Below, in pieces: positions 47,066 through 55,326 of a DNA stretch of 64,000 bases. The translations under genes were made by a program, and so were the position numbers. Position 1 is the first letter of the stretch. Each line of letters begins with the position of its first letter. The notes below the pieces were generated by a model. The model was not told where the DNA came from. It did no database searches and was given only the letters and a program-made list of their open reading frames with translations. Origin of the DNA: Paeniglutamicibacter kerguelensis. GTDB lineage: Bacteria; Actinomycetota; Actinomycetes; Actinomycetales; Micrococcaceae. The DNA is taken from positions 248,001-312,000 of the forward strand of contig NZ_JAGIOF010000001.1 in NCBI RefSeq assembly GCF_017876535.1. Reading direction: 5' to 3'.

Positions 47066-48214
47066 CTATCGAGCGGTGTTGCTCATGGTGAAGGTCCGTG
47101 CAACGGAGGCGGAGAACCGCTCGGAGGCAAACGCCCGCGATGCCAGGGCATCGCGCAAGGGAATGAAGGACGGGCCGAGCGGCCGTCCCAGGACCATGTT
47201 GATCCGGGCCTGACGGGCGGCCGTTCGTGCGGCAGCCATGCGGCGCGACGAGAACCGGTCAAGGATCCCGTTGAATTGTTCGCCGGGCAGCCGGCCGTTG
47301 ACGGCCAACGCAAGCAAGGGCGCCAGTTCTTCGGCATCAAGCAATCCAAGCGTCATGCCTTGACCTCCGATGGGGCTGATCTCATGGGCGGCATCGCCGA
47401 TGAGTACGATCCGACCATGGTTCATCCGGTCCACCAGGTAACTGGACGTGCGGAAGCGGCTATGCATTGAGTTGCTCGCGGGATCCAGTCGATGGCCGGT
47501 GCGCCGAGCCACGAGGACGGCGAGATCGCCGCGATCCTCTTTCCCCACCCGGGCCACCCATCTGCGTACACCGCCGGGCAGCGGAAACGACTCAACGATT
47601 CCCTCGGGGTGCAGGAAAAGCGCGGCGACCGGACCAAATCCCGTGGAGTCGAAATAGTCGCCCATGACGTAGTGGTCGGGATGGGTTTGTCCGGTACGCC
47701 GGATCCCCGCGGCTTCCCTGAGCGGTGAGTGGCTTCCGTCGGCGCCGATGAGAATTCGGCATTCAAGTTCCCGCGATTCTCCGTCCGCGCTGCAAGCCCA
47801 AACTCGATGGTGATCGGGACGGGAAGTGAAGCGCTGAAACTCCACGCCGCCCATGAGGGCCTCGCCGTCAACTTCGCACAACCGGTCCCTTAGCCTCTGA
47901 ACCGTCCGGTCCTGGGGCAGGGACAGCACAAATGGATGGAGAACCGGCAGAGACGAAAAATCAAGTTCCGCAATCACCCGCCGCCGGGACATCCCCACGC
48001 CACGGGATATCCGGATGCCCTGCTCCACCAGGTCCTGGCCGACGCCGAGCCGGTCAAGTACCGCGAGGCCCGGTGGATGGATGCCGATGGCACGCGAATG
48101 CCCGCCGACCTGGTTGCGGGCCTCAAGCACCCGGACAGCGAAGCCCGACCTCAGCAGCATCAACGCAAGTGCGAGCCCGCTCGGCCCGCCCCCGACAATG
48201 AGCACGTCGATCAA
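47066..48214 (-). CDS. FAD-dependent aromatic monooxygenase, SrsC-like
   Basis: A 382-residue group A flavoprotein hydroxylase: VLIVGGGPSGLALALMLLRS (FAD), RILIGADGSHSPLR (DG motif), and RIVLIGDAAHEISPIGGQGM (GD motif). In the srsABC operon of Streptomyces griseus the corresponding enzyme hydroxylates alkylresorcinols to give quinol/quinone lipids. TTG 48214 overlaps the methyltransferase stop codon (TTGA), so the genes are coupled; GTG 48205 is another possibility. It is third in a PKS-methyltransferase-monooxygenase operon. Confidence 0.87.
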   Translation of the reverse strand: MIDVLIVGGGPSGLALALMLLRSGFAVRVLEARNQVGGHSRAIGIHPPGLAVLDRLGVGQDLVEQGIRISRGVGMSRRRVIAELDFSSLPVLHPFVLSLPQDRTVQRLRDRLCEVDGEALMGGVEFQRFTSRPDHHRVWACSADGESRELECRILIGADGSHSPLREAAGIRRTGQTHPDHYVMGDYFDSTGFGPVAALFLHPEGIVESFPLPGGVRRWVARVGKEDRGDLAVLVARRTGHRLDPASNSMHSRFRTSSYLVDRMNHGRIVLIGDAAHEISPIGGQGMTLGLLDAEELAPLLALAVNGRLPGEQFNGILDRFSSRRMAAARTAARQARINMVLGRPLGPSFIPLRDALASRAFASERFSASVARTFTMSNTAR

Positions 48215-48918
48215 GGCAGCGCCGCCGGTGCATGCCAGACGGCCAGATTCCGGTACAAGCCGGGTGAATACACGTGCCATTCCGGGCGCACCACGCGCGA
48301 AAGCTCGTCCGCGGTGAAGCTGCGGCGGATCGAGGTGAGGCCGTCGCGGCGAATGTACGAGGACCGGTCCAACGGCAAGGTGGCCAGGCCGAAGAAAACC
48401 AGGGCGGAGCGCCTGCGGCGGATATCGCTGTGTATGGCCAGGGTGCGCGCGAGTCGTTCGGTGTCGGCGAACACCCCCGCCAACTCCACCGGGCCCAGAT
48501 GATGGAGCACGTGGTTGGAGACCACTACGTCGAATCGTTCCCCCCTGCTCACCAACTCGGAGCTGGCGGCCCTACGGAATTCCAGGAGGGTCGGGTCGAT
48601 TCCCGCCTTGGCTGCGGAGCGAACGGCATAGTCGTGGGCGCGTGCATCCGGGTCGATGCCCACGACCCTCACGTCAAACCCGTCGGCCGTGGCCCAGCGA
48701 AACAAGTTCCGGGTAATGTCCCCGCCGCCGCAGCCGATGTCCAGGATGGTGCCGGTGCGGTTGCGCGGAAGCGCCGGCCGGATCAGCGCCACATACACCT
48801 GCCGCCACCCGGAGACGAACCTGTTCACCAGGGGGAATTGGGCATAGGTCCGTTCCAACAGCAGCGGGTCGCAATCCGGCCTGTCCATCTCCTCAACCGC
48901 ATTGATGGCCCTTTGCAC
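48211..48918 (-). CDS. Class I SAM methyltransferase, SrsB-like
   Basis: A 235-residue methyltransferase. Motif I is LDIGCGGGD, the acidic end of strand 2 is VGIDPD, and post-motif VVVSNHVLHHLGP marks a Rossmann-fold SAM enzyme of the UbiE/Coq5-like kind. Between a type III polyketide synthase and a flavin hydroxylase it should methylate a phenolic hydroxyl of the polyketide lipid. GTG 48918 lies 9 nt after the PKS stop; ATG 48888 is possible but would sit directly on its ribosome site. Confidence 0.85.
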   Translation of the reverse strand: MQRAINAVEEMDRPDCDPLLLERTYAQFPLVNRFVSGWRQVYVALIRPALPRNRTGTILDIGCGGGDITRNLFRWATADGFDVRVVGIDPDARAHDYAVRSAAKAGIDPTLLEFRRAASSELVSRGERFDVVVSNHVLHHLGPVELAGVFADTERLARTLAIHSDIRRRRSALVFFGLATLPLDRSSYIRRDGLTSIRRSFTADELSRVVRPEWHVYSPGLYRNLAVWHAPAALP

Positions 48919-48927
48919 GGCAGCGGC

Positions 48928-50067
48928 TCAGCCCGCTCTTCCCGGCAGCAGGGTCATCAACGAAGTCTCCACCGTCAGCCCCGGCCCGAAAGCCATGGAA
49001 CACACGCGCTCGCCGGCCGGGGCCACACGTGGCAGGTTTTCCTCCATGATGTCCTTGAGCACGAACATCACGGTGGAACTGGACATGTTGCCATAGTCGT
49101 TGAGCACCCTGCGCGCCGGCATCAGCTGCTCCTCGCTGAGCTCCAGGCGTTTTTGCACCCGGTCCAGGATCGCCCGGCCGCCGGGATGGATTCCCCAGTG
49201 CGGAATGTTGGCATAGGTCGTATCCAAGGATCCATCCCGGGCAAGCAACGGGGCCAGCGCTCCGACAATATGATCGTCGATGATGTGGGGAACGTAGGTG
49301 CCCAGGACCATTTCGAATCCCTCATCCCCGATGTTCCAGGCCATTGCCTCTTCGCCGACGGGGGTGAGGACGGTTTCAAAGTGGTCCAGTTGCATTCCCG
49401 GCCCATGGTGGTCGCGTGCCGTGACGATGGCGGCTGCGGCCCCGTCGGCAAAGAGCGCGGAACCCATGATGGTGTCAGGATCATTCGAACTACGTACATG
49501 CAGGGAACAGAGCTCGGCGCACACCACCAGCACCACGGCGTTCGGGTCTGCGTCGCAGAAGCTCTTGGCAGCACGCAATGCGGGGAACGCCGCATAGCAG
49601 CCCATGAAACCAAGGTGGTATCGCTGGGTGGAAGGGCTCAGGCCCAGGGCCCTGACCAGTTGGTAGTCGGGCCCCGGATTGTAGAAACCAGTGCAGGAAA
49701 CGGTGATGACATGCGATACGTCGGCGGAAGTGAGATCCGGGCATGCACCAAGCGCCTTCTGTGCCGCTTCGATGTAGAGCCCCGGCGCGATCGAGGCAAA
49801 AAGCTCGTTGCGAACCTTGGTGCTGGGACTGAGCAAAAGCCCCGAATCGGCGTCGAAGAAGTCCGGGTTTTTGGCCACGGATTCGGTGGTGAATTCCTTG
49901 ACCGCCGTGTGCCTTGTGGAAATCTGGGCCGAATCGAAGGACGTGGCGATCAACCGCTGTCCCAGCCGGGTCAAGCCGGGCTGGGAGGCAAAGACGTCGC
50001 GTGCCTTGTCCTGATACAGGATCGTGGGGGGTACTGCTGTTTGGATGGTTCTCATCATCACCGACAT
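48928..50067 (-). CDS. Type III polyketide synthase, alkylresorcinol/alkylpyrone type
   Basis: A 379-residue chalcone synthase-like enzyme. The catalytic triad is Cys157 (GFMGCYAAFPAL), His294 (WGIHPGG) and Asn327 (LNDYGNMSS); the C-terminal GFGPGL-like loop reads MAFGPGLTVE. It condenses a fatty acyl starter with malonyl-CoA units to phenolic or pyrone lipids. The operon with a methyltransferase and an FAD hydroxylase parallels srsABC, which makes membrane phenolic lipids tied to beta-lactam tolerance. I start at ATG 50067; residues upstream of it look non-coding. Confidence 0.92.
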   Translation of the reverse strand: MSVMMRTIQTAVPPTILYQDKARDVFASQPGLTRLGQRLIATSFDSAQISTRHTAVKEFTTESVAKNPDFFDADSGLLLSPSTKVRNELFASIAPGLYIEAAQKALGACPDLTSADVSHVITVSCTGFYNPGPDYQLVRALGLSPSTQRYHLGFMGCYAAFPALRAAKSFCDADPNAVVLVVCAELCSLHVRSSNDPDTIMGSALFADGAAAAIVTARDHHGPGMQLDHFETVLTPVGEEAMAWNIGDEGFEMVLGTYVPHIIDDHIVGALAPLLARDGSLDTTYANIPHWGIHPGGRAILDRVQKRLELSEEQLMPARRVLNDYGNMSSSTVMFVLKDIMEENLPRVAPAGERVCSMAFGPGLTVETSLMTLLPGRAG

Positions 50068-50254
50068 GTCCCAGAGCCTATGTCTGCTCAGGTCGGAGGT
50101 AAAGAGCCATTGCCTGAACACCGGACGAAGAACACGCATGGCAAGCTTGCTGTCCGGGAAGGTCTAGCGCCGTCAAAGGGGCAAGCGTATCGTTCGTTTT
50201 GGGAGACCAACAGCGGTCAACAGCTATCCCAGCCAGATGGAGAGCAGGCATGTC

Positions 50255-50395
50255 ATGCCGGACAAGTCACCACATAAACACGAACACAAGAAACCACACG
50301 GCAAAACCATCAAGGAGCGGCGGGCCGAAAAGCGCTCGAAGAACGCTCCCGAGGCCGACACCGAACAGGTAACCCACATCAACAAGAAGCATTGA
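50255..50395 (+). CDS. Small basic protein (46 residues)
   Basis: MPDKSPHKHEHKKPHGKTI followed by KERRAEKRSKN and INKKH. It is very rich in Lys, His and Arg. I recall similar short Lys-rich proteins (MxDKSP...GKTIKEKRA) across Micrococcales, all of unknown role. AGCAGG lies 6 nt upstream and a perfect terminator hairpin follows, which supports a real transcript. It may bind RNA or DNA. Confidence 0.7.
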   Translation: MPDKSPHKHEHKKPHGKTIKERRAEKRSKNAPEADTEQVTHINKKH

Positions 50396-50423
50396 ACCCG
50401 TTGAGGGGAGAAACTGCAAAAAG

Positions 50424-50457
50424 AAAGTGGAGAAGAGAATACTCTTCTCCACTTTTC
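50424..50457 (+). terminator. Terminator of the small basic protein gene
   Basis: AAAGTGGAGAAGAG (50424-50437) and its exact complement (50442-50455) form a 14-bp stem with an AATA loop, followed by TCTGTG. Confidence 0.85.
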
Positions 50458-50540
50458 TGTGTGTACTGGCAGTGCGATCCCGGTGCCGCTGGATGCTTTC
50501 GGTAAAACCTGGCGCTACGAAAAGATTTTTTGAATTCTTC

Positions 50541-50568
50541 CAATCCGTGTTGCGCACCGCGCCGAATG
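50541..50568 (+). promoter_or_regulatory. SigK-type promoter of the FAS1 lipoprotein gene
   Basis: CAATCC (50541-50546), 16-nt spacer, CGAATG (50563-50568). The mycobacterial SigK consensus is CCATCC, 16-17 nt, CGAATA. The same arrangement occurs at 52981-53008. It predicts an mRNA start near 50575. Confidence 0.7.
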
Positions 50569-50641
50569 CTTCATGACAGCCCGCACCGCATGGTCGGGAA
50601 GGCGCGGCGGCCTAGAACTGCCGCATGGCAAGGAGAATGAC

Positions 50642-51337
50642 ATGAAGCGCATGAACAGCAAGTTTGCTGCAGCACTCGGATTGATCGCAGTTGCCACGGT
50701 AGGGCTGACCGCTTGCTCGTCGGGCACGGGGAGCACCACCACCGAGTCCATGGCACCTTCGGCCCCGATGGCCACCTCCAGCGCACCGGCAATGCCTAGC
50801 GGCTCCGCGATGGCCACTGAATCGGCAATGGATCCGGCAGCCAACTTGGTTGGTTCCGCCTGCGCAGCATATGCCAAGGCAGTTCCCAGCGGCGATGGAT
50901 CGGTGGCTGGAATGGCCAAGGATCCGGTGGCCGTGGCGGCCTCCAACAACCCGCTGCTCAAGACCCTGACGGCCGCAGTCTCGGGCAAGCTGAATCCCAA
51001 GGTCGACCTTGTCGACACGCTCAATGGTGGAGAGTTCACCGTTTTTGCCCCGGTTGATGAAGCCTTTGCCGCCATCCCGGAAAAGGACCTCAGCGCGGTG
51101 GTTGCCGATGCCGCAACCCTCAGCAGCATCCTGACCTACCACGTGGTCGCCGGCCAGATCGCACCGAGCGACATCGACGGGACTCACAAGACCGTCGAAG
51201 GCCAGGACGTGAAGGTCACCGGCAGCGGTGACGACATCATGGTCAATGAAGCCAAGGTGATTTGCGGTGGCGTTCAGACCGCCAATGCAACCGTCTACCT
51301 CATCGACACGGTGCTGATGCCGCCGGCAAAGAAGTAA
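50642..51337 (+). CDS. Fasciclin-domain lipoprotein (MPT70/MPT83-like)
   Basis: A 231-residue secreted lipoprotein: lipobox VGLTAC, a Ser/Ala/Met/Pro-rich linker with Met-rich repeats, then one FAS1 domain ([46 protein letters not shown], and [20 protein letters not shown]). It is the counterpart of mycobacterial MPT83/MPT70, which are controlled by SigK. ATG 50642 follows AAGGAG. A SigK-type promoter lies 74 bp upstream and sigK-rskA directly downstream. Surface adhesion or metal handling are suggested functions; neither is proven. Confidence 0.92.
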
Positions 51338-51371
51338 CTGCCTCGGTCGCCATCGCGACGCATTGGCCATC

Positions 51372-51420
51372 CAGGGGGTTGGCGTTCGACGAGCCAGGCT
51401 CGCCAAACGCCGGCCCCCTG
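51372..51420 (+). terminator. Terminator hairpin after the FAS1 gene
   Basis: CAGGGGGTTGGCGTT (51372-51386) pairs with 51406-51420 with two G-T wobbles, and a 6-bp inner hairpin CGAGCC-A-GGCTCG fills the loop. It separates the FAS1 transcript from sigK. Confidence 0.75.
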
Positions 51421-51506
51421 AATCGGATCTCCGCCAATCTCTTGGGGATGTACAGATATGACTTTTCTAGTCGCAGCACCACTGCCGAAAGTGGGTGGGG
51501 TTCGGA

Positions 51507-52109
51507 ATGCGTGAGACGCTTGAACACATGAGCTCACATCGACTTGGTGAAGCGGAACAGGTTTCAGTTCCCACACCCGAAGACTTGATGCTCCAGATCG
51601 CCACGGGCAATGAGAACGCTTTCGAAGAGCTCTATGACCGCTTGTCTTCCCAGGTCTTTGGTCTCATTCGACGCATTTTGAAGGATGAGGCGCAAAGCGA
51701 AGAAGTGACGCAAGAGGTATTCGTGGAGGCCTGGCAGCAAGCAACCCGTTTCGACGCGGCCAGAGGGAAAGCGATTACATGGCTGTTGACCTTGGCGCAC
51801 CGCAGAGCCGTTGACAGGGTTAGGGCAAGCCAGGCCAGCAAGGATCGTGACCTTCGCGAAGGCATCAAGGAATTCCAGGAAAGCTATGATGACGTTGAAG
51901 AAACGGCCATCCAACACGACGAAAGTCGTCGCGTCCTCCAAGCCCTTGAACGGCTCAGTGAAACACAGCGCGACGCCATCCAGCTGGCGTATTTCGGCGG
52001 CTACACACATATAGAAGTGGCCGAATTACTCAAGATCCCGGTGGGGACCGCAAAAACGCGAATACGCGATGGCATGAACAGACTTCGAGACCTGATGGGG
52101 GTGGCGTGA
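51507..52109 (+). CDS. sigK: ECF sigma factor SigK
   Basis: About 200 residues. Region 2: AFEELYDRLSSQVFGLIRRI, SEEVTQEVFVEAWQQATRFD, ITWLLTLAHRRAVDRVR. Region 4: LERLSETQRDAIQLAYFGG, VAELLKIPVGTAKTRIRDGMNRL. The AHRRAVDRVR block and the coupling to an RskA-type anti-sigma factor identify SigK. It should direct RNA polymerase to CAATCC/CGAAT promoters, two of which flank it. ATG 51507 follows GGTGGGG; ATG 51528 is possible. Its own promoter shows no SigK box that I can see. Confidence 0.92.
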   Translation: MRETLEHMSSHRLGEAEQVSVPTPEDLMLQIATGNENAFEELYDRLSSQVFGLIRRILKDEAQSEEVTQEVFVEAWQQATRFDAARGKAITWLLTLAHRRAVDRVRASQASKDRDLREGIKEFQESYDDVEETAIQHDESRRVLQALERLSETQRDAIQLAYFGGYTHIEVAELLKIPVGTAKTRIRDGMNRLRDLMGVA

Positions 52110-52951
52110 TGGAAGAGCACAAGAACGAGCTGACCGGCAGCTTTGCCCTAAACGCACTTGGCGATTCGGAGCGCGACGAAGTACTTCAGCAGGCAGAGGC
52201 ATCCGAAGCCGTCCGCGACGAAATCGATGCCCTGCAGGAAACCGCTGCACTCCTTGGGCTCTCTGCTGAACCCGTGGAACCTCCGGCCAGGGTCAAGGCA
52301 AACATCATGGCCGCCATCCGCAACACCCCTCAGCTTCCGCCCGTTCAAACGGAAGCGGGAGAGCCGGCCGAGCCTGTCGCGGAAACGCCGCCCGCCGAAC
52401 CGGCTGCCGAAGGTGCACCGGGGAACCCCCCATCCCAAAGCCACGAGCCAACGGCAACGGCACCCGCAGCGGGCAAAACGAGCCAGCGAATGTTCGCGTT
52501 GGCGGCCGGTGTCCTGTTGATCGCCTCCGGTGTCCTGACAGGGGTGGTGGTGAACCAAAATGCGCAGCAGGAACGGCTCGAGCAGCAGCTTTCCGCCTTG
52601 AACGACAAGCAGGCCGAATTGACCAAGATCCTGACGGCCACTGACGTGAAGTCCAAGACCCAGCGGATGGATGACGGAGCCCGGGTTACCCTGGCGTACT
52701 CGGCCGCCGAAGGGATGATGGCGGTGACCACGGAGGGCCTGCCGACGTTGCCCAGCGACAAGGGATATGAACTGTGGCTGATCTCGGATACCGGAGCGGT
52801 ATCCGCGGGCATGGTCGATGGAACGAATACCGACGGAATGGTCATGGTTTCCGGCCCGATGGAGGGTGTCACGCACTTCGGCATCACCGTGGAACCTGCC
52901 ACCGGCTCACCGGCTCCAACGACCGAACCGATCATGGTCCAAGCTCTCTGA
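52106..52951 (+). CDS. rskA: Anti-sigma-K factor RskA
   Basis: A 281-residue single-pass membrane protein. The cytoplasmic N-terminus (TGSFALNALGDSERDEV) is the RskA sigma-binding region, without a zinc-finger motif. A long Pro/Ala/Glu-rich linker, one membrane helix at about 133-152, a short coiled coil, and an extracellular beta domain (VTLAYSAAEGMMAVTTEGLP, KGYELWLISDTGAV) follow. It holds SigK inactive until regulated proteolysis; the redox or envelope signal is unknown here. GTG 52106 or ATG 52109 overlaps the sigK stop. Confidence 0.92.
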   Translation: MMEEHKNELTGSFALNALGDSERDEVLQQAEASEAVRDEIDALQETAALLGLSAEPVEPPARVKANIMAAIRNTPQLPPVQTEAGEPAEPVAETPPAEPAAEGAPGNPPSQSHEPTATAPAAGKTSQRMFALAAGVLLIASGVLTGVVVNQNAQQERLEQQLSALNDKQAELTKILTATDVKSKTQRMDDGARVTLAYSAAEGMMAVTTEGLPTLPSDKGYELWLISDTGAVSAGMVDGTNTDGMVMVSGPMEGVTHFGITVEPATGSPAPTTEPIMVQAL

Positions 52952-52980
52952 GTTCCGGCACAGAATTTGTGGCCGCCTAC

Positions 52981-53008
52981 CAATCCGGTGGTGGTAGCGT
53001 TCCGAATA
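52981..53008 (+). promoter_or_regulatory. SigK-type promoter of the molybdoenzyme gene
   Basis: CAATCC (52981-52986), 16-nt spacer, CGAATA (53003-53008). The -10 matches the SigK consensus exactly, and the -35 and spacing equal those of the promoter at 50541. Confidence 0.75.
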
Positions 53009-53075
53009 CGAAGTGATTGGTGCTCCCTGGATATGCCGGTGGAGACAAAACACAACGTACGGGGCAGGTGCACTC

Positions 53076-54641
53076 ATGAATGAGAGAACGGCAAGCAGAC
53101 TGCGTGACCTGGGAGCCTTCGGGCTCGCGGGTTTCGCGTCGGCGGCGGTGCTTTTTTCGGTGGCTCAGTTGGCTTCGGCCTTCTTCGCCACCTCTTCGGC
53201 ACCGCTGGTGGCGATGGGGGCGGTCTTCATTGACCTGACTCCGCCGTGGCTCAAGGACTTCGCCATCGCCACCTTTGGCACCAACGACAAATTGGCGCTT
53301 TTCGTTTCGATGGGCGTGATCGCCGCTGTCGCGTCCGTGATCGTTGGGTTGATTGCCAAGCGCAGTTTCGCCATCGCATCGGGATGCATCGTGGTTCTGG
53401 CGATGGCCATCGGCGGCGCAGTGCTTTCCCGCCCGGACACCGGTCTGGCCGACCTGACTCCGATCATCCTGGGAACCGTGGCTTCGCTGATCGTGCTGCG
53501 CTGGTTGACGCGATTGGCAGCCGCGGCCTGGGCCCACCGCCCGGACGGCGACTCGGGAGCCGTGTCCGGCGCCTCGCGCAGGAACTTCCTGCTCGGAACC
53601 GCACTTGCCTTGGTCGGTTCGGCGGTTGCCGCGGGGATCGGAAAGTCCTTGGCCACGGCCAGAAACGTGGCCGATGCCGCGCGCGCGGCGCTGGGCTTGC
53701 CCCCTGCCAAGGTGCTGGCGAAGCCCCTGCCGGGAGGTGTGCAGATCGATCTGGCCGGCATGCCGCCATTCGTGACGCCGAACAAGGATTTCTACCGCAT
53801 CGATACGGCGCTGTCGGTTCCCCGCCTCAACCCGGCCGACTGGTCCCTGCGTGTCCACGGGATGGTCGAGCACGAATTCACGCTCAGCTTTGAGGAACTG
53901 CTCAAGGAAGACCTGGTCGAAAGCTACCTCACACTGACCTGCGTATCGAACCCGGTGGGCGGACCGCTGATCGGCAACGCCAAGTGGTTGGGGTATCCGC
54001 TTCGGTTGATTTTGGAGCGGGCCGTCCCCAAGGCCGGTGCCGACATGGTGCTTTCAACCTCAATCGACGGGTTCAGCGCGTCCACGCCGCTGGAGGTGCT
54101 CACCGACGCCCGGATGGCCCTGCTGGCGATCGGCATGAATGACGAGCCACTACCCCTGGAGCACGGGTTCCCTGTCCGCATGGTCGTCCCGGGCCTCTAC
54201 GGATACGTTTCGGCCACCAAATGGGTCGTCGATCTCGAAGTGACACGGTTCCAAGACAAGGTCGCCTACTGGACCACTCGCGGATGGTCGGATCATGGCC
54301 CCATCAAGTTGTCTTCGCGGGTGGACGTTCCGCGTTCCTTTGCCAAGGTCCCGGCGGGCAATGTGGTCATGGGCGGAACAGCCTGGGCCCAGACCCGCGG
54401 GATTTCCGGGGTGCAGGTCCAGATCGACGACGGCGCGTGGGTTGACGCCGAGCTGGGTGCCGAGGCATCCCTTGATACCTGGCGGCAGTGGCGCTACGTC
54501 TGGGACGGCGGGACCTCGGGAAACCACACTGTCAGCGTTCGGGCGATCGACGGCCATGGCGTGGTGCAAAGCAGTGAGAAGGCCAATCCGGCACCCAACG
54601 GCGCCAGCGGGTGGCAACGGATCCAATTCTCCGTGCAGTAG
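53076..54641 (+). CDS. Membrane-bound molybdopterin oxidoreductase, sulfite oxidase type
   Basis: A 521-residue protein. The first about 150 residues contain about four membrane helices. A second hydrophobic stretch after SRRNFLLG (about 167) looks like an embedded Tat-like motif. The rest is a sulfite-oxidase-fold molybdenum domain (VTPNKDFYRIDTALSVPRL, DWSLRVHGMVEH, the Mo-ligand Cys near 289 in LTCVSNPVGG, PVRMVVPGLYGYVSATKWV) with a C-terminal dimerisation domain. It probably oxidises or reduces a small sulfur or oxygen compound, perhaps repairing methionine sulfoxide as MsrP does. ATG 53076. A SigK-type promoter lies upstream. Confidence 0.9.
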   Translation: MNERTASRLRDLGAFGLAGFASAAVLFSVAQLASAFFATSSAPLVAMGAVFIDLTPPWLKDFAIATFGTNDKLALFVSMGVIAAVASVIVGLIAKRSFAIASGCIVVLAMAIGGAVLSRPDTGLADLTPIILGTVASLIVLRWLTRLAAAAWAHRPDGDSGAVSGASRRNFLLGTALALVGSAVAAGIGKSLATARNVADAARAALGLPPAKVLAKPLPGGVQIDLAGMPPFVTPNKDFYRIDTALSVPRLNPADWSLRVHGMVEHEFTLSFEELLKEDLVESYLTLTCVSNPVGGPLIGNAKWLGYPLRLILERAVPKAGADMVLSTSIDGFSASTPLEVLTDARMALLAIGMNDEPLPLEHGFPVRMVVPGLYGYVSATKWVVDLEVTRFQDKVAYWTTRGWSDHGPIKLSSRVDVPRSFAKVPAGNVVMGGTAWAQTRGISGVQVQIDDGAWVDAELGAEASLDTWRQWRYVWDGGTSGNHTVSVRAIDGHGVVQSSEKANPAPNGASGWQRIQFSVQ

Positions 54642-54664
54642 CAACCAGCCCGGGGCGGGGTCGC

Positions 54665-55111
54665 TCAGGTGTACATCAACGAGCCGGGCGTGGTCAGCCG
54701 TTCACCCGTTTCCAGCCAGGTTTTCATGCCGGAGAGGATCATCGGCCAGCCGCCGTATAGCTCACCGTGTGCGCCTGCCTTCAACCGATCGTGGGTCACA
54801 GTCAGCAGGCACGTGTCCTCGAACTGGGTGATTTCGTAGGAGATGCGGCTTTCGCCCTCGGCCTGCACGGCCTCGCTCCACAGCGCAGTCATCGTCACGA
54901 CCAACTTTTGGTTTGGCTCGGCTTCAACAACGGTGCCCTCGCCCAGCGGTCCCGCCGCGTTGGGGTTGGTCGTGGTGAATGCGGAACCCGGCACCCAGTC
55001 GGTGATGTAGGAATTTCCGAAGTAGTAGATGGAGGTTTGCTCCGGATCGGTCATGGCCGCCCAGAGCTTCTCGGGCGTGGTCTTGATGTAGTACTCATAG
55101 ATTTTTTCCAT
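54665..55111 (-). CDS. SRPBCC (AHSA1-type) protein
   Basis: A 148-residue START-like protein: EKIYEYYIKTTPEKLWAAMT, NSYITDWVPGSAF and ISYEITQFEDTCLLTVTHD, ending in GWPMILSGMKTWLETGE, as in AHSA1-type lipid or ligand binders. ATG 55111 sits directly on a GGAG; an upstream in-frame TTG at 55117 is also possible. It is convergent to the molybdoenzyme gene. Ligand unknown. Confidence 0.88.
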   Translation of the reverse strand: MEKIYEYYIKTTPEKLWAAMTDPEQTSIYYFGNSYITDWVPGSAFTTTNPNAAGPLGEGTVVEAEPNQKLVVTMTALWSEAVQAEGESRISYEITQFEDTCLLTVTHDRLKAGAHGELYGGWPMILSGMKTWLETGERLTTPGSLMYT

Positions 55112-55326
55112 CTCCAAAGGCTAAACCCGGATTGTGCCCATACGCCCAAATTGGGCAACAATTCTTTGCGAACGGGAGGTTTCGTCGTCTTACCAAGAAC
55201 GCATTCGGCCTGTGGATTCGATGAAAGCGTGGGCGGCAACCGGGTTCGCGGCGGTACTTGATGCGGCCCCCATGCGGTGCATGCCGCTATCACTGCCAGC
55301 GCCAGCAATCCTTTGGGGTGAACGCC

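Follow-up and report, generated by a model that had tools for sequence, protein, structure and literature searches.

The fasciclin (FAS1) proteins MPT70 and MPT83 of tuberculosis bacilli are major antigens, and to our knowledge their function is not settled. Paeniglutamicibacter is a soil bacterium related to Arthrobacter, and we know of no report of it as a pathogenic genus. The mpt83-sigK-rskA cassette, with its SigK site, is already known (Veyrier et al. 2008, as given in an excerpt of PMC7509140). A second relevant system is Sco3746, a polytopic molybdenum-cofactor protein which needs both Sec and Tat, according to the excerpted text of PMC5449189. Here we describe a block of four genes in a window of 64,000 nucleotides from the 4.8 Mb genome of Paeniglutamicibacter kerguelensis (contig NZ_JAGIOF010000001.1, positions 248,001 to 312,000); "the window" means this whole stretch. 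Its SigK is 78–88% identical to those of named Paeniglutamicibacter species. We hold it to be highly probable, from the sequences compared below, that the block belongs to a regulon of the extracytoplasmic function (ECF) sigma factor SigK and its anti-sigma factor RskA, and that the genes for a FAS1 lipoprotein, a membrane molybdoenzyme and a distant DUF4383 membrane protein are its targets.

SigK-type sites in the window and the genus

All four genes lie on the forward strand with short gaps between them. The first (50642..51337) encodes a FAS1 lipoprotein with a lipobox-like Cys25 (PF02469, 98.7 bits), and its kinship with MPT70/MPT83, which the original prediction had proposed, is supported by 198.8 bits against MPT70. 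It is followed by sigK (51507..52109; NF007228, 260.6 bits with a cut-off of 226; best PDB hit SigK 4nqw, 169.5 bits) and by rskA (52109..52951), the start of which overlaps the sigK stop. RskA is full-length, with 280 residues, one transmembrane (TM) segment and no cysteine (PF10099, 94 bits; NF052375, 142.9 bits with a cut-off of 100). The fourth gene (53076..54641) encodes a membrane molybdoenzyme of the sulfite-oxidase family (PF00174, 142.3 bits). The four gene calls made earlier were right by these Pfam and NCBIfam scores.

Two SigK-type promoter sites had been predicted, and both were found where they had been placed. P1, CCAATCC-N16-CGAATG, stands before the FAS1 gene at 50540..50568 (+), and P2, CCAATCC-N16-CGAATA, stands before the molybdoenzyme gene at 52980..53008 (+). 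The window holds 2 matches, and no third, to the pattern CAATCC-N15-17-CGAAT; shuffled sequences averaged 0.10, and at least two matches appeared in 1 of 100 shuffles. The genome scan with this pattern, which had been suggested along with the prediction, gave 7 matches, and the reversed control gave 0. Without mismatch, CCAATCC-N16-CGAATR occurred three times in the whole genome, at the two window sites and, on that contig but 3.14 Mb off, before a DUF4383 gene; with up to one mismatch there were 8 matches against 2 for the reversed control. Three own-genome matches (L003, L004 and L006) lie inside frames, and the five one-mismatch sites (L011–L015, of which L013 is the place of L004) have no evident target. 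One further own-genome match, CAATCC-N17-CGAAT on the minus strand (L007, G000:C4:126815-126842), lies about 50 bases 5' of a predicted membrane-protein frame.

Each of the 15 genus genomes holds a pair of exact sites with about 2.4 kb between them. The core CAATCCG-N14-CCGAAT was matched 40 times in these genomes and its reversed pattern 0 times. FAS1 has 13 of these matches upstream of it, the molybdoenzyme 14 and DUF4383 10, and 3 lie elsewhere, the assignment being by position, spacing and spacer identity with known loci, with no new gene call per genome. Some genomes of the genus have additional CCAATCC-N16-CGAATR sites, and those of L056, L060, L062, L063 and L074 were also examined. The site of L060 is within a coding frame, and L056, L062 and L063 showed no clear target. 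At L074 (G011:C367), an exact CCAATCC-N16-CGAATG at 1303 stands before a frame at 1411-2187 of the reverse complement; its product, which is secreted, matches no Pfam family and has a hydrophobic stretch at its C-terminus, is a possible extra SigK target in one species. A core site away from the three known targets is common to two genomes (L063/L253 in G014:C8, and G010:C1:1004928).

Conservation was measured over a footprint set of 16 loci, 15 from Micrococcaceae and that of the window. An exact FAS1 site (CCAATCC-N16-CGAAT) is present in 16/16. The molybdoenzyme site is exact in 13/16, over SigK identities down to 73%; L027, L028 and L038 carry CGAAAA, and two of these also carry CAATCT. 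The spacer columns vary, with a mean identity of 0.67 for FAS1 and 0.74 for the molybdoenzyme and 14 distinct sites each. Of the 40 bases just 5' of P2 in the 13 loci none is invariant; the rows were chosen by an exact core, so that core invariance in this comparison is by construction, and 13/16 and 16/16 are the fair counts. In none of the 16 loci do P1 and P2 have the same spacer, and therefore P2 is not a fresh duplicate of P1. The footprint and the genus scan thus support SigK-type promoters before both genes, and on these sequence comparisons promoters and shared control are very likely.

Orthologues of the DUF4383 protein (79–100% identity) are found in 10/15 genus genomes, and 10/10 have [C/G]CAATCC-N16-CGAAT just upstream of the gene. 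Ten paralogues (56–65% identity) have no site just upstream (0/10), even allowing two changes. DUF4383 is a likely third SigK target in the genus, judged by these sites. The regulon had been described as lying in one block; with this target 3.14 Mb away, that description was wrong. In Sinomonas, sigK-rskA is followed by DUF4383 with its own site, CCAATCC-N17-CGAACT, in the gap.

Recurrence of the link among actinobacteria

Fixed-string motifs missed most sites in distant loci. Therefore, a matrix was used, built from 36 distinct Micrococcaceae sites with the distant loci excluded. In a class sample of 118 genomes, SigK was over its cut-off in 59 and the molybdoenzyme was present in 59, with both in 47. 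In 18 of these 47, the window genome counted, from 9 families, no more than 15 kb separates the molybdoenzyme gene from sigK; random placement would give about 0.5 such pair. Eighteen sigK-molybdoenzyme places outside the genus (17 genomes) were compared, together with 2 SigK loci without the molybdoenzyme. A FAS1 gene is within the cluster at 18/18 places, and the order enzyme-FAS1-sigK-rskA is kept in 15/18 (L165, L166 and L167 differ). The matrix placed a site before the molybdoenzyme gene in 18/18 (p 0.005–0.025 against shuffles); when windows were drawn at random from these loci, with the true sites kept in, 1.7% reached a score of 10. In a metagenome-assembled genome of Acidimicrobiales (L036, 5423-9565), the order is sigK-rskA-molybdoenzyme-FAS1-FAS1, with tandem FAS1 genes.

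FAS1-linked and unlinked molybdoenzyme genes were then set against each other, using 61 of the 78 listed places (one being that of the window) and L036. Outside the genus, 29 copies had a FAS1 gene in their cluster, and for 32 no FAS1 was seen, often within a stretch of 1.5 kb on each side, so that some "unlinked" labels may be wrong. Repeat readings (L130–L134, L136 and L140) and the Micrococcaceae loci were left out, and L174, with FAS1 3.1 kb off, was counted as linked. A matrix score of at least 6 was reached by 24/29 linked copies against 3/32 of the others (Fisher 4e-9), and a score of at least 10 by 21/29 against 1/32. The 32 include L178, L180 and L193, with the upstream part cut or uncertain; when these are dropped the count is 3/29 (p 3e-8). 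In 12 genomes with both a linked and an unlinked copy, the linked copy alone passes in 10, the second copy of G089 being cut by a contig end. The footprint, the out-of-sample loci and the paralogues together support the earlier proposal of the molybdoenzyme as a linked target.

On a tree of 65 molybdoenzyme copies, with L174 labelled as unlinked, the FAS1-linked label needs 10 changes against a shuffled mean of 21.9. An unlinked copy is the neighbour of the Micrococcaceae enzymes (support 97/88), which lie outside the largest linked group and have a different gene order. The tree is compatible with a new recruitment to SigK control and with repeated loss of linkage, and does not decide between the two.

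Several points weigh against this reading. The cut at a score of 6 was set after the scores were known. Five linked copies fall below it (L152 at -11.0; L168, L172, L192 and L197 at 1.3–2.6), three unlinked copies pass it (L138, L189 and L196), and the two copies of G059 (1.6 vs 0.5) and of G060 (1.7 vs -14.0) are not separated by it. Some distant sites are 11–32 bases 5' of the modelled start, which is close for a promoter unless the start is misplaced. At least 8 label changes on the tree are required by well supported branches. FAS1 and the molybdoenzyme are both absent within ±1.5 kb at 28/30 SigK loci read, and in 29 of the 47 genomes with both genes, sigK and the molybdoenzyme are not within 15 kb; the link is therefore recurrent and not universal. 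That SigK recognises the sites is deduced from adjacency and from the SigK literature, and the cooperation of FAS1 and the enzyme rests on co-occurrence and one published fusion remark. With these points counted, SigK control of the molybdoenzyme still looks recurrent in actinobacteria, though many SigK loci lack the enzyme. A site scoring at least 6 stands before sigK itself in 19/30 SigK loci read. SigK is often self-controlled, and often without FAS1 or molybdoenzyme output nearby.

DUF4383 was rejected as a general SigK target across the class. Fifty places were listed and 30 copies read; of these copies 25 stay under a score of 6, and the window genome supplies one of the 5 that exceed the cut. 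At L226 (G035:C260), a DUF4383 gene with a SigK-type site before it lies within about 1 kb of a sub-cut-off SigK relative, and at G131:C2:58643-66208 a DUF4383 gene adjoins FAS1 about 7 kb from sigK.

The molybdoenzyme and other explanations

The N-terminal part of the molybdoenzyme has about four hydrophobic helices, an RR pair at 168-169 and a fifth helix near 171-189; this count rests on a simple hydropathy plot and a moderate structure model (pLDDT 67.5, pTM 0.42), which served only to assign the fold class and the helices. Cys289 in TCVSNPVGG is aligned with the Mo ligand, and a beta domain forms the C-terminus. The RR pair and the Mo-ligand Cys are kept in 42/42 aligned copies. The only His in the first 200 residues is at 154, after the fourth helix. 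No conserved TM histidine was found, since no His column before the RR pair is shared by at least 40% of the 42 aligned copies. The MoaA C-terminal domain is present in 15/15 genus genomes. By analogy with Sco3746, the enzyme is most likely inserted by Sec and then Tat, with its active site outside.

The family of the enzyme bears on its reaction. In NCBIfam it is under the cut-off both for SorA (98.0 bits, cut-off 600) and for MsrP (NF003767, 53.4 bits, cut-off 207). Foldseek places sulfite oxidase and SorA first, the MsrP structures 1xdq and 1xdy being weaker and shorter matches (E about 1e-7 to 1e-8), and the best PDB sequence hits are likewise in the sulfite oxidase/SorA family. TCVSNPVGG lies opposite CSGNSR of SorA, so that the SorA Arg has no counterpart. 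The enzyme is thus nearer to the sulfite oxidases than to MsrP, and the repair of oxidised envelope proteins, the possible role offered in the original prediction, is unproven. MsrP-type repair is unsupported by these scores and stays a weaker candidate.

Three other explanations were weighed. In the first, the linker of the FAS1 protein would be a sacrificial store of Met, and the enzyme would reduce the methionine sulfoxide in that linker, in the manner of Met-rich peptide/YedY systems under ECF control. Azospira MrpX is reportedly such an ECF system with a Met-rich protein. Systems of this kind known elsewhere, as far as excerpted sources tell, and the 5 Met in the 42-residue linker of the window speak for this scavenger. 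The linkers of 15 relatives have 1–4 Met in 31–42 residues, and the enzyme is nearer to SorA. The Met count is not kept, so this explanation was rejected as the lead, and we regard it as unlikely. In the second, the sites would belong to another ECF sigma factor of similar specificity, with sigK as a bystander. ECF promoter elements overlap between groups, and other ECF genes are likely in the genome: a loose search with NF007228 gave 26 candidates, of which 24 were scored and 1 had E <= 1e-30. Against it, the sites recur at the sigK-molybdoenzyme clusters of 9 families and before sigK itself, as counted above, and SigK sites in actinobacteria are highly conserved, orthologues recognising the tuberculosis mpt70 site (PMC7509140, excerpt). 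This second explanation appears slightly less probable still. The last and least probable one, a very small chance, makes P2 an idle copy of P1 and the enzyme a product of rskA read-through or a housekeeping promoter; the single strand and short gaps of the four genes would allow it, and L027, L028 and L038, which keep the gene despite the altered -10 CGAAAA, count for it and against SigK control, but the P2 core is exact in 13/16 loci below 40 bases with none invariant, its spacer differs from that of P1, sites precede FAS1-linked molybdoenzyme genes in other gene orders, and no sigma-70-type site was found in 50100-55300 by a scan not covering all actinobacterial promoters.

Control of SigK and comparison with known systems

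SigK has no cysteine in the window, in 15/15 Micrococcaceae relatives and in Sinomonas, so that the equivalents of C133/C183 are missing; in the alignment to 4nqw, A and L lie opposite the Cys residues. Three distant SigKs (L031, L033 and L034) have two Cys at the expected places. The thiol (disulfide) switch of tuberculosis SigK therefore cannot operate here. The conservation of C133/C183 is 94% in ECF18 and 56% in ECF19, and thus their absence does not exclude SigK; RskA is present alongside 85% of SigKs lacking both Cys, and Nocardia has an active Cys-less SigK with a short RskA (all from the excerpt of PMC7509140).

In the SigK/RskA regulon that we prefer, the one-TM RskA would hold SigK at the membrane until a signal arrives from outside. 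SigK would then be freed, probably with site-2 proteolysis; M50 protease genes are present in the genome, which agrees with the published proteolysis of tuberculosis RskA. The freed SigK would transcribe the FAS1, molybdoenzyme and DUF4383 genes. No SigK-type site stands right before sigK in the 7 Micrococcaceae loci scored, so that feedback on sigK-rskA would run through P1, by transcripts passing a hairpin after FAS1, as a damped autoregulation. This stem-loop, at about 51366..51425 (+) between FAS1 and sigK and without a T tract, may be a terminator/attenuator or an mRNA stabiliser. A strong stem-loop is found in this gap in 16/16 loci (z -3.2 to -7.0) with differing letters, and in an alignment of 8/16 loci 8 of 18 pairs are changed on both sides. 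Partial termination or mRNA protection by the hairpin would give much FAS1 and little SigK. The molybdoenzyme would work beside FAS1 in a redox reaction at the outer face. An excerpt of PMC1949818 reports that some secreted enzymes combine a FAS1 domain with a molybdopterin oxidoreductase domain, which supports a shared task of the two proteins.

A wider reading is tentative and, in our estimate, rather doubtful. In this reading a membrane molybdoenzyme without haem and the FAS1 lipoprotein would be the two parts of a redox system at the outer face, an old and repeatedly rebuilt output of SigK in actinobacteria, and MPT70/MPT83 of tuberculosis bacilli would represent the FAS1 part after loss of the molybdenum partner. 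The Micrococcaceae enzyme, with another tree branch, another gene order and its own SigK site, would look as if recruited anew.

The surroundings of the block were also inspected. A stem-loop of 14 pairs with a minus-strand T tract (50424..50455) may be the boundary that sets the SigK block off from the genes upstream of it. It has the longest stem among 6 terminator-like sites in the region, a count at chance level (shuffled mean 5.4). Directly 5' of it is a short frame (50255-50395, +) for a His/Lys-rich basic peptide of 46 residues. Further left (47066-50139, -), genes of a type III polyketide synthase, a methyltransferase and an FAD-dependent oxygenase stand in a row by Pfam, likely a small polyketide cluster. 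On the right, a gene for an AHSA1-type protein (54665-55117, -; PF08327) is convergent with the molybdoenzyme gene.

A link between SigK and the molybdoenzyme was not found in the open-licence literature; Veyrier et al. 2008, outside that scope, may describe it. The same literature gave no description of DUF4383 as a SigK target, of the hairpin or of the Cys-less SigK of this genus. The relatives of MPT70/MPT83 beside a molybdoenzyme with a SigK site in several families offer a concrete partner for these antigens and point to an extracytoplasmic redox role. In addition, the small SigK regulon of Paeniglutamicibacter, with a natural Cys-less SigK and a full-length RskA, would be of use in separating signalling relayed by RskA from the thiol switch.

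The block resembles the mpt83-sigK-rskA cassette in the order FAS1-sigK-rskA, in the SigK site before the FAS1 gene and in RskA beside SigK. In contrast to that cassette, SigK-type sites also stand before the molybdoenzyme and DUF4383 genes, the Cys-less SigK is paired with a full-length RskA, and a hairpin follows FAS1. The molybdoenzyme is of the same superfamily as MsrP (YedY), which uses the Tat route, but its score is far under the MsrP cut-off and its fold match is weaker and shorter. With sulfite oxidase, SorA and SoxC it shares the PF00174 domain, the Mo-ligand Cys and a similar C-terminal domain; unlike them it is membrane-anchored, far below the family cut-off and without the Arg of CSGNSR. 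As in Sco3746, five TM helices are predicted, with RR just before the fifth and the molybdenum-cofactor domain outside, whereas the conserved TM histidines for two b haems that the excerpt of PMC5449189 gives for Sco3746 have no match here.

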